Source of the DNA: Caulochytrium protostelioides | Taxonomy: Eukaryota > Chytridiomycota > Caulochytriomycetes > Caulochytriales > Caulochytriaceae | Direction of reading: 5' to 3' | DNA length: 64,000 bases | Assembly: GCA_003615045.1 (NCBI GenBank) | Contig: ML014207.1 | Span: 1 to 64,000 of the forward strand | Part shown: positions 43,284 through 47,255 of the stretch, piece by piece | Layout: each line of letters opens with the position of its first letter | How positions within the stretch are numbered: position 1 is the first letter of the stretch | Translations under genes and position numbers: made by a program | Notes under the pieces: generated by a model | The model's database searches: none | What the model was told of the DNA's origin: nothing | Seen by the model: only the letters and a program-made list of their open reading frames with translations

Positions 43284-46200
43284 CTACGCCTCGCCCTCGT
43301 CGTCGCCCTCGTCGTCCTCGTCCATGTCGAGGACGTTGTCGTCGCCGACACGGCGGTGAAGCAGCGGGTAGATCTCGCGGGCAAAGTACGGCGGCACGGC
43401 CGGGCCGCCGGCGGCGCCGTGGACGGCACCGCGGGCGCCGATGCCGACACTGGGCTGGCTCGGGTGGGAGCGGCGCACGGCCTCAAAGTAGCGCTCATAG
43501 ACGTTGCCGTCGTAGGCGCCGAACGGCGAGTTGACCATGAAGTCGGAGAGGCCGAACGCGTCGACGAGCGGGACGGCGTGGCGGCGGACGGTGGCGCAGA
43601 GCCGGGCGACGGCGGCGCGGAGGGCGTCCATCTCGCTCGCGCGGAGGAAGCCCTGCTGCAGCAGCAGCGCCGGCAGGTCGCCGGTCGCGAGCGCGTGCAG
43701 CCCGTAGAGACGGCACAGATCGGTGAGGACCGGGCCGAGTCCGTGGCGTGCGTCGGCGGCCGCAGGGTGGTCGAGCGCCGCGTGGAACCGGTGGAAGACG
43801 TAGCCTGCGCAGTGGACGCGGGCGGCGAGCAGCCGCGCGGCGCTGCAGACTTCGTGGGCCTCCTCCTCGGGCTGCGCCGCGCCGCGCGCCTGCGCGTCCG
43901 CCAGCGCTGCCTCGAACTGCTCCGAGGCCGCACGGACGGCTTCGCGCGCGACACGGCGGAACGCTTCGGCGATCCACGCCAGACTGTGCAGGTCAGCAGC
44001 ACCCGCATCAGCACCGGCACTGGCGGACGACTGCGGGCCGAGGTATGCAACGCCCTCCGGCAACGGCCGCGGCGTCGCGTTCTTTTTGGACTTGCGCTGG
44101 CTGAGGCCGTTGGCGTCACGATAGCATCCGACGAGGTAGCGCCCGGCCTGGAGGGTCAGGATGGTGTTGTCGCCCTCCCAGGTGCAGTTATGGACGGCCG
44201 TCCAGTCCGCGAGCAGGAAGCGCTTCGTCGTGCCGTCGACCTCGAAGGAGTAGAATGTGTTCGTGCGGCCGGGCTCGGTCGGACCTGCGGCCGCGACCTC
44301 GAGGTGGGCACGCGTGCGCTGGCCCGCACTGACTTCGTGGAACGCCGCGAGGCGCTTGGGCGCCACGTGCATGTGCGCCGAGACGTGTTCCTGGCCGGGA
44401 CCGGCGAGGCGCAGCACGCGAGGCGAGGCGGCGACGACGCCCTCGTCGTTCTGGCCGGACGGCGGCTGGGACGCGCGGGCACGTGGCCCTTGAGCCGCGC
44501 CACGTGCCTGCTCGCTGCAGACTTCACGCGCGTGCACGAGCCCCAAGGAGCGGCCGAGAAGCTGGACGTCGTCGACAAGACGCGCCGCATCGTCGTTTGA
44601 CGGGGTGAACTGCCAGACGGGCGTCGGCTCGGGCGAGGACGGCGTCCGCGCGTCGAGCGAGGCCGCGTCGTCGTCAACGCGCATGCCCGCGTCCGAGTCG
44701 CACAGGCCCGCGAGGACCTGGCGGCGCACCGTGGCGGGCGCATACAGGAACGCCGGCGGGATGTGCTTGTTCATCCCGTCTGCGCCGGTCAGACCAAAGG
44801 CGTCGAGGGCCTCGCGGAGGCGGTGGCCGTGCGTGTGGGGCGCGCTCACATCGTCGATGGCGACGCGCCAGCATCCGCCGACCTCGACGGCCTCGTCCTC
44901 GGCGACCTTGTCGAACGGCACGTCCGTGGACGCAGCGGCGTCGGCCGCGTCGCGATGAGCCACGTGGACGGAGCGGACCTTGAATCCGAGGGGCGCGTAG
45001 AACTGACGCAGACGGTCCAGGACCGACGTCTCGCGGCCCGCCGACTCGATAGTGGCGGACGTGGGCGAGCCGCCGCCGAGCCAGAGCCCGAGGAAGTACG
45101 GATCCAGGAGCGCGTGGTGGGCACGCAGGGCAGCAGGCACGGCCGCACTCGCGAGCGGCTCGGGCCACGCGTCGACGACCGTGCCCCGGAAGCCGCCAAA
45201 GACCGACTTCAGCGGATGGCGCGCGTCGAGGCCCGCGTAAGCGTCGGCCGTGATGTCCACGACGTCGCCGCGGCGAACACGGTCCGGCTGCTGGTCGAGC
45301 CAAGCGACGCACTGGCGCGTCAACTCGGCGTCCGCGGCAGCCTCGGCAGCGCTCGCCATGGCCTCGGCCGTGCCCGGCGCCCCAGCGTCGCTTGACGGGA
45401 CGAGGGCGCCGTCGGCACCCCGGGAGAAAGTGGTCCAGCGCCACTCGGGCTGGCCAGCGGCGTTGCGCGCGGCCCACTGCATGCGCGCCGCCCCGAACGC
45501 CGGCGACGCATGGATACGGTACGGCGCCGCCTCGCAGCGCAGACTGAGCAGGTGGCCCGGGGTCACCTCGTAGGCCATCACGTTCTGTCCCTGTGCCTTG
45601 CCCGTGATGGCGCGGGTCTCGGCTTCGATGGCCAGGACGGGCGTGCAGACGCGGGTGACGCGGCCATGCTCGTCCAGCAGCGCATCACCGGTCGCGAGGT
45701 CCTCCACGTTCACCCGCGCCAGCGCATGGTCGCGGATCGCCAGGACGGGCGTGCCCTTCACGAGGCAGTGGACGGCAAAGTCCGCATAGGTGCTAGCGAG
45801 GCCCGTGTAGGAGCTGTAGCCGTGCCCGCCGCAGGCCTGGCGGCAGGTATCGATCGTGTGGAGCGTCGACCACGTGCAGAAGGCCTTAAGGCCCGCGGAG
45901 GTGCCGTGCATCTCCTTGAGCGTGTCCACAAGGTTGTCCATCGCAGCGCGCCCGCCGGCACCGGGGCCCTTTTCGGCGGCGGCGGTCATGTGCGCCATCA
46001 GCTCGTTGTACATGCGCGTGACCTCGCGCGCCGTGAAGCGGAACGCATACGCCTGCGCCAGCAGCGGCATGAGGCGGTATTGGTGAATCGCATAGTCCAG
46101 GATCTTGGTTTCGGCGGGCGCGACTGGCAGGGACGGCAGCGGTGGCGGTGGCGTATACGAGCCCGCATGCGCGGATGCGGGCGACGGGAGCCCGTGCGGC

Positions 46201-47255
46201 GGCTCCGGGTGCGCGGTCATCGTCGCGCTCTCGTTGGTATCGGCACGCGCGGCGGTCGCCTGGCCCGTGAACTGGCGCCGCACGGCGGCGTAGCGGACGG
46301 CGATGACGAGGGCTTTGCCGGCCACGTTGGCGGCGTCCGTGACCATCGTGACGCGGCCCGTGATGAGCGCGCCATAGGCGAGCTGCGGGATGCTCTTCGA
46401 GCGGACGGTGCCGTCGCGGGCGACGTGGACGTGCTTCATGAGCAGGTGCGAGCGCGGCACGCGGACGGCGGTGAACTGGATCCACCCGTTGTCGGTGCCG
46501 TGGCGGCCCATCTTGGCGCCGATGTCGCCGATGCGAATCCCCGGGCGCAGCGCGAACGTGTCGACGTCGCGGAGCTGGACGACCAAGGTCTTGACGCCGT
46601 GGTTGACGCCGTTGACGATGAGCTGCGCGAAGACGGCGGCGTGCGTCGCGGTCTGGGCCGCGCCGCCGATCCACCACTTGGTCGCCGTCAGCGTCGGTGT
46701 ATGGACCACAAACTCGTCGGCGGCCGGGTCGAACGTCGCCGTCGTTTCGAGGCCAGCGACGTTCGAGCCGTGCCCGAGCTCGGTCATCGCGAAGCAGCCC
46801 GTCAGGCCGTTCAGGCCCATCGCGCCCTGGGCGATCCAGTGCGCGAACTGGCTCGGCGTGGCTTGACCCTGCAGGGCGCCCAGGAACAGGCCGAAGTGGA
46901 CGCCGATGCGGGTCCACGTGCCCGGATCGAGGATGGCGAGCATCTCCATGCGCAGCTTGAAGTGGTCGATCGGCTCGGCGGTCACGTACTCCGCGAAGCG
47001 GCGGACCTTGGCCATCGTGCGCTCGCGGACTTCCGCGAGCGAGAGATCGGCGTCGTTGGGGTCGACCGTCGCAAAGACGGGATCCCGCTCGAGCTGCAGC
47101 ATGATCGTGTCCTTGCGCTGCGTCAGGGCGGGGTCGTTGTTGTCGAGAAACGACCGCATCGCGGCCACATCGAACGTGCCATGCGCGCGTTCAGCCGCAA
47201 GGTCCTGCATGGGTCTACCGGGCGTGATTAGCGATGGTTGATGTGGCGAGAGCAT
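43284..47255 (-). CDS. Acyl-CoA oxidase precursor interrupted by an intein
   Basis: One continuous frame of 1323 codons. ATG at 47255 is the longest start; ATG at 47210 (MQDLAAERAHGTF) fits family N-termini better. Numbering is from 47255. The first 496 residues are an acyl-CoA oxidase: FDVAAMRSFLDNND, the FAD/substrate motif CFAMTELGHGSNVAGLET, KWWIGGAA and ACGGHGYSSYTGL. A Pro/Ser-rich insert of about 48 residues follows RRQF (about 333-380). At residue 497 an intein of 527 residues begins. The oxidase resumes at C1024 with CTWEGDNTILTLQAGRYLV, whose Glu (E1027) is the expected catalytic base, and runs to 1323 with the C-terminal ACOX helices. Excision would leave 796 residues. The enzyme catalyses the first, H2O2-forming step of peroxisomal beta-oxidation. 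The acidic end (DDEGEA) carries no PTS1, so import would need another signal. Confidence 0.93.
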   Translation of the reverse strand: MLSPHQPSLITPGRPMQDLAAERAHGTFDVAAMRSFLDNNDPALTQRKDTIMLQLERDPVFATVDPNDADLSLAEVRERTMAKVRRFAEYVTAEPIDHFKLRMEMLAILDPGTWTRIGVHFGLFLGALQGQATPSQFAHWIAQGAMGLNGLTGCFAMTELGHGSNVAGLETTATFDPAADEFVVHTPTLTATKWWIGGAAQTATHAAVFAQLIVNGVNHGVKTLVVQLRDVDTFALRPGIRIGDIGAKMGRHGTDNGWIQFTAVRVPRSHLLMKHVHVARDGTVRSKSIPQLAYGALITGRVTMVTDAANVAGKALVIAVRYAAVRRQFTGQATAARADTNESATMTAHPEPPHGLPSPASAHAGSYTPPPPLPSLPVAPAETKILDYAIHQYRLMPLLAQAYAFRFTAREVTRMYNELMAHMTAAAEKGPGAGGRAAMDNLVDTLKEMHGTSAGLKAFCTWSTLHTIDTCRQACGGHGYSSYTGLASTYADFAVHCLVKGTPVLAIRDHALARVNVEDLATGDALLDEHGRVTRVCTPVLAIEAETRAITGKAQGQNVMAYEVTPGHLLSLRCEAAPYRIHASPAFGAARMQWAARNAAGQPEWRWTTFSRGADGALVPSSDAGAPGTAEAMASAAEAAADAELTRQCVAWLDQQPDRVRRGDVVDITADAYAGLDARHPLKSVFGGFRGTVVDAWPEPLASAAVPAALRAHHALLDPYFLGLWLGGGSPTSATIESAGRETSVLDRLRQFYAPLGFKVRSVHVAHRDAADAAASTDVPFDKVAEDEAVEVGGCWRVAIDDVSAPHTHGHRLREALDAFGLTGADGMNKHIPPAFLYAPATVRRQVLAGLCDSDAGMRVDDDAASLDARTPSSPEPTPVWQFTPSNDDAARLVDDVQLLGRSLGLVHAREVCSEQARGAAQGPRARASQPPSGQNDEGVVAASPRVLRLAGPGQEHVSAHMHVAPKRLAAFHEVSAGQRTRAHLEVAAAGPTEPGRTNTFYSFEVDGTTKRFLLADWTAVHNCTWEGDNTILTLQAGRYLVGCYRDANGLSQRKSKKNATPRPLPEGVAYLGPQSSASAGADAGAADLHSLAWIAEAFRRVAREAVRAASEQFEAALADAQARGAAQPEEEAHEVCSAARLLAARVHCAGYVFHRFHAALDHPAAADARHGLGPVLTDLCRLYGLHALATGDLPALLLQQGFLRASEMDALRAAVARLCATVRRHAVPLVDAFGLSDFMVNSPFGAYDGNVYERYFEAVRRSHPSQPSVGIGARGAVHGAAGGPAVPPYFAREIYPLLHRRVGDDNVLDMDEDDEGDDEGEA
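44187..45767 (-). mobile_element. Intein with LAGLIDADG-type endonuclease domain in acyl-CoA oxidase
   Basis: Residues 497-1023 of the precursor (527 residues) have every splicing block. Numbers here count from the first intein residue. Block A is CLVKGTPVLAI with Cys1. Block B is VTPGHLLSLR with Thr69 and His72. Block F is FYSFEVDGTTKRFLLAD. Block G ends AVHN with penultimate His526 and Asn527, followed by Cys as the +1 nucleophile. Between them lies a homing-endonuclease domain of the yeast VMA type: FLGLWLGGG (225-233), NKHIP (333-337), VLAGLCDSDAGM (351-362) and LLGRSLGLV. The first motif has Gly232 where the catalytic Asp is expected; the second keeps Asp359. Cleavage is therefore probably lost while splicing looks intact. 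GC content and codon use match the host gene, suggesting long residence or a close donor. Confidence 0.93.

Follow-up and report, generated by a model that had tools for sequence, protein, structure and literature searches.

The acyl-CoA oxidase (ACOX) gene of Caulochytrium protostelioides, a fungus placed by the NCBI taxonomy in the class Caulochytriomycetes of the Chytridiomycota, appears to be interrupted by a self-excising class 1 intein whose endonuclease is probably dead and which most likely descends from Prp8 inteins by an ectopic move. The probability of this composite reading can be put at about 0.86; the statement that the insert is a translated intein, taken alone, is close to certain. 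The gene lies on the minus strand of the analyzed window (positions 1 to 64,000 of contig ML014207.1, 64,000 nucleotides in all), in a genome described in the genome paper as showing a haploid pattern (PMC6784888), and comprises the following features.

43284..44186, minus strand: ACOX C-extein, CTWEGDN..., stop codon included
44184..44186, minus strand: Cys+1 codon, the first of the C-extein
44187..45767, minus strand: intein of 527 codons (1581 nt), CLVKGTP...AVHN
44187..44261, minus strand: intein blocks F and G, ending RFLLADWTAVHN, with His526 and Asn527
44343..45113, minus strand: LAGLIDADG endonuclease region (intein residues about 219-475), matching free-standing endonucleases
44685..44729, minus strand: second LAGLIDADG motif, VRRQVLAGLCDSDAG, with Asp359 retained
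45072..45074, minus strand: Gly232, replacing the Asp of the first LAGLIDADG motif (LGLWLGGG)
45540..45572, minus strand: intein block B, YEVTPGHLLSL, with Thr69 and His72
45729..45767, minus strand: intein block A with the nucleophile Cys1, CLVKGTPVLAIRD
45768..47255, minus strand: ACOX N-extein (residues 1-496 of P0001), ending ...YADFAVH and including a probable 123-nt intron
46124..46246, minus strand: probable spliceosomal intron, GT...CAG, 123 nt, within the N-extein frame

The frame at 43284-47255 is free of stop codons over 1,323 residues and contains both ACOX and the insert, which is in frame within a conserved and otherwise unbroken protein. In a Pfam search of the whole frame, four ACOX domains (PF14749, PF02770, PF22924, and PF01756) were found flanking the insert. 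The closest relatives of solved structure, by sequence, are acyl-coenzyme A oxidases 3 (5ys9) and 1 (5y9d), presumably both Yarrowia proteins, and in the alignments with them the two host halves join at a single Cys preceding TWEGDN, which locates the insert, to the residue, after His496 and before Cys1024 in precursor numbering. We take the Glu in CTWEGDN to be the catalytic base of ACOX. Uninterrupted ACOX proteins, the search for which had been proposed in the earlier note, do exist: the chytrid protein P0025 reads NDFAVHCTWEGDN, and P0026 and P0028 have AVQCTWEGDN at the corresponding site. Frame, domains, and alignments thus agree with the original observation, made from the sequence alone, that ACOX stops at FAVH and resumes at CTWEGDN 527 residues further on with no intervening stop, and the coordinates then given for the insert (44187-45767) proved exact.

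An open frame of this length is by itself weak evidence, since this GC-rich DNA has several other long overlapping frames, so that homology, the predicted fold, and codon-position composition have to decide. The residues by which the insert had originally been recognized (a first Cys, a TxxH block B, and a His-Asn pair preceding a Cys) are all there. Cys1 is shared with 29 of the 32 other rows compared (2 of the 32 have Ser); block B has Thr69 and His72 in VTPGH, residue 69 being N in 24, T in 6, S in 1, and A in 1 of these rows and residue 72 being H in 31 and N in 1; and the insert ends in His526-Asn527, followed by Cys. The predicted fold is that of an intein with a LAGLIDADG endonuclease, including the Hint fold. 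Together with homology to Prp8 inteins over the full length and the failure of intron models, these motifs support the proposal of a class 1 intein in a nuclear ACOX gene. Of the intein profiles recommended for checking it, PF05204 does match the insert, yet below its cut-off (E value of 0.12, 12.9 bits against a cut-off of 21.1). PI-SceI was matched by sequence with an E value of 0.14, and the protein search matched inteins. No intein match above the cut-off was obtained with Pfam on the whole frame or on the insert or with NCBIfam on the whole frame, and none of the six intein and endonuclease profiles searched against the genome detected the ACOX intein. Because the protein search did find inteins, the missed detection by Pfam and NCBIfam looks like a limit of sensitivity.

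The GenBank model of the gene, CXG81DRAFT_8311 (P0024), treats most of the same stretch as a spliceosomal intron, leaving out residues 495-1011 of the open frame; the model also lacks a second, much shorter stretch (46124-46246), and apart from these two stretches and the two joins its protein is identical to the product of the frame. The implied intron is as follows.

44223..45773, minus strand: pseudo-intron implied by P0024, GTCCAC...ACGAAG, which leaves RFLLADWTAVHN in the protein

Such an intron would be compatible with an insert length divisible by three and with the presence of frame-keeping GT...AG pairs, but several observations make it very improbable. Removal of 1581 nt with the ACOX junction kept exact is possible at six offsets, and none of the six combines a GT or GC start with an AG end. 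A wider listing took donors (GT or GC) lying up to 60 nt from the 5' junction and AG acceptors lying anywhere from 150 nt ahead of the 3' junction to 20 nt past it, and FAVHCTWEGDN was not restored by any of the in-frame, stop-free pairs listed; hence, no GT/GC-AG removal among those tried restores ACOX. The junction in P0024 fuses ADFA to RFLLADWTAVHNCTWEGDN, dropping VH and retaining, ahead of CTWEGDN, the conserved intein C terminus RFLLADWTAVHN; as this stretch resembles the endings RFLLGDWTVMHN and RFMLADWTVVHN of Prp8 inteins, the model evidently keeps a piece of the intein beside CTWEGDN. Codon-position composition, along with the full-length homology to Prp8 inteins, indicates selection on the protein: GC fractions at codon positions 1 to 3 are.757/.543/.877 in the insert and.657/.500/.899 and.780/.513/.890 in the exteins, as opposed to.677/.641/.579 and.665/.675/.663 in two flanking stretches taken as intergenic. 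As to transcript support for the model, the main text of the genome paper (PMC6784888) has no occurrence of "RNA-seq" and one of a word beginning with "transcript". In this case a gene predictor appears to have concealed a translated intein by treating it as an intron, a point relevant to the true rarity of nuclear inteins.

A much shorter stretch of the N-extein, 46124-46246, is probably a real intron: it is not in P0024, is unmatched in the Yarrowia ACOX alignments, and has lost the coding GC pattern (.707/.732/.829 at codon positions 1 to 3). The precursor is accordingly likelier to have 1,282 residues and the mature enzyme 755, and the sizes first suggested (1,323 and 796 residues) are each probably 41 too large.

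With all the standard class 1 residues there, excision of the intein and ligation of FAVH to CTWEGDN are expected. The insert would be translated within the precursor, where a split Hint splicing domain would fold around the LAGLIDADG domain; a thioester formed at Cys1 would be transferred to Cys+1, and cyclization of Asn527 would release the intein and leave FAVH joined to CTWEGDN. That the intein has decayed and has stopped splicing, or cleaves without ligation and leaves ACOX dead or split, seems improbable. Such decay would fit with an endonuclease that is probably dead (Gly232) and with two other ACOX-family genes that could cover the loss, but Cys1, Thr69, His72, His526, Asn527, and Cys+1 are all in place, the exteins are free of stops and retain four ACOX domains, and the GenBank model P0024 has 55% identity to a chytrid ACOX; intact exteins and this level of identity suggest selection for a working product. 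The two paralogs, on C23 and C41, read VTYEGEN and MTAEGDN at the site and are located as follows.

L040 1895-4102, minus strand: ACOX-family paralog without the insert
L041 1627-3546, minus strand: ACOX-family paralog without the insert

Given these paralogs, the proposed dependence of peroxisomal beta-oxidation on splicing is too strong a claim, and the cell may be able to burn fatty acids without the intein-bearing ACOX.

In the predicted-fold comparison, the endonuclease region was matched by the free-standing endonucleases 2dch (219-474), 1mow (219-475), and 5ak9 (222-470). An active enzyme would be expected to have two motifs, each with its catalytic acid. Asp359 of the second motif is retained here and in 32 of 32 other rows, but the first motif carries Gly232 at a position occupied by Asp in 29 of these rows and by Asn in the other 3; by comparison with PI-SceI, we take the Asp at this position to be catalytic. 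PI-SceI, an active endonuclease, requires both catalytic acids. From its sequence, then, the ACOX intein endonuclease is probably inactive, and the intein is now probably inherited vertically.

The nearest known relatives of the ACOX intein are Prp8 inteins inserted between DPLEVH and CLDFPN (the metagenomic P0023 and P0029-P0033), which are homologous across the whole insert with identities of up to 34% and have the same block order, ending, and H/C junction, but reside in Prp8 rather than ACOX; with ACOX as its host, the element is not an allelic Prp8 intein. Five Prp8 proteins have DPLEVH to the left of the intein and CLDFPN to the right. The first catalytic Asp is kept in five of the six Prp8 rows and is Asn in P0029, in contrast to Gly in the ACOX intein. 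PI-SceI, the intein of yeast VMA1, differs in both host and site and has about 18% identity in a structural alignment. The Cryptococcus neoformans Prp8 intein 6mx6, which we take to be located at Prp8 site a, can be superposed on the predicted ACOX splicing domain to 1.8 A, with 142 of 143 residues aligned at 27% identity; its solved chain of 143 residues, unlike the ACOX intein, has no endonuclease domain.

A maximum-likelihood tree of 35 rows, none dropped (32 metagenomic inteins, the ACOX insert, and two other inteins of the genome), groups the ACOX intein with six Prp8 inteins at 100/100 and, within them, with P0029 and P0030 at 92/94, which is below the program's mark of 95/80. Unusual composition was noted by the program for three rows (ACOX, P0029, and P0031), and the Caulochytrium inteins of VMA1 and eIF5B were marked as having long branches; P0031 has no recognizable intein start. 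Direct horizontal transfer into ACOX of a bacterial, phage, or giant-virus intein, instead of a Prp8 intein, is unlikely: the more remote matches of the insert, inteins whose metagenomic host proteins carry helicase, RecA-like, and AAA domains, would be consistent with such a source, but both levels of grouping in the tree, the common H/C junction, and the RF(L/M)LxDWTxxHN ending shared by ACOX and Prp8 inteins speak for Prp8. The junction is in itself a suggestive hint of relationship. Descent of the ACOX intein from the Prp8 inteins of the DPLEVH/CLDFPN site through a rare ectopic move is thus the most likely origin, the direction being inferred. Ectopic movement of inteins has been considered likely to be very rare by Goodwin and others (PMC1635734).

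The Prp8 of Caulochytrium itself is empty at the DPLETH/CLDFPN site and reads DPLETHCLDFPN. The DNA around this site and around the ACOX site matches at 7 of 20, 9 of 30, and 23 of 60 positions, not above chance against a background of 16406 in-phase and 241 Cys-codon positions from 11 frames, those of the two ACOX paralogs and of nine further intein hosts, Prp8 among them; hence, no homing route can be seen. A slip of the endonuclease at a look-alike site was considered and is unsupported, similarity of the ACOX and Prp8 site DNA being at the chance level.

As far as the open-access literature goes, ACOX is a new intein host, while the element itself is of a standard intein kind. Searches of that literature found neither an ACOX intein nor a paper on Caulochytrium inteins. 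A 2018 survey (PMC5784728) reported 257 inteins from 231 eukaryotic species, with no fatty-acid oxidation gene among the seven most common nuclear hosts, and cited Fusarium fujikuroi, with its three, to illustrate that one genome can hold several; "acyl-CoA" and "oxidase" are absent from its main text, and its Table 1 bears out the other nuclear hosts named in the earlier note. The text of PMC8778642, as searched, mentions inteins and does not name Caulochytrium.

Profile and sequence searches, with the frames read by eye, put the total for this nuclear genome at 14 inteins, distributed over 11 genes, a count that may be low because the profiles missed several, the one in ACOX included. The ten other hosts are listed below; their names agree with Pfam at the family level, subunits and amino acids having been assigned by reading.

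L007 1705-7671, plus strand: RPC1 with an intein
L008 1622-9385, minus strand: RPB1 with two inteins
L011 2342-7594: RPB2 with an intein
L009 3061-6438, minus strand: TrpRS with an intein
L010 1871-6991, minus strand: IleRS with an intein
L036 2904-6266: ThrRS with an intein
L034 1730-6730: eIF5B with an intein
L035 3196-6261: VMA1 with an intein
L033 3140-9976, minus strand: PRP8 with apparently three inteins, one of them a 163-residue mini-intein
L051 2856-9887, minus strand: large membrane-like protein with a glycosyltransferase domain and an intein, CIAAGTPV...VVVHN, followed by Cys

Four of the 14 (in ThrRS, the first in RPB1, and the second and third in PRP8) are weaker cases, recognized by mutual homology and by their place inside conserved proteins; they end in Gly-Asn or Gly-Gln, and the one in ThrRS matches TIGR01445 below the cut-off (E value of 0.0145). 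With some 14 inteins in a single fungal nuclear genome, C. protostelioides should be a strong system for studying how inteins spread between unrelated genes.

It is conceivable, if doubtful, that inteins of this chytrid lineage move often between unrelated genes, at least 11 of which have been colonized, and that the copy in ACOX, whose nucleophiles Cys1 and Cys+1 lie in an enzyme that generates H2O2, serves as a conditional switch for the amount of active enzyme made. The idea of a feedback in which H2O2 blocks splicing is weakened by a reporter assay: for the C. neoformans Prp8 intein, H2O2 had no effect, whereas copper, zinc, and reactive nitrogen compounds were effective (PMC6805012).

The inteins of RPC1 and the second of RPB1 are 86% identical over 422 columns and occupy matching sites, which points to recent copying between these paralogous genes. 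Both begin with Ser and end in Lys-Asp, followed by Thr, rather than in His-Asn. The inteins of TrpRS and IleRS also form a related pair, sharing 25% identity (E value of 3e-27). The metagenomic Prp8 fragment P0030 carries two inteins, one at the DPLEVH/C site and another that matches the third Prp8 intein of Caulochytrium with 42% identity.
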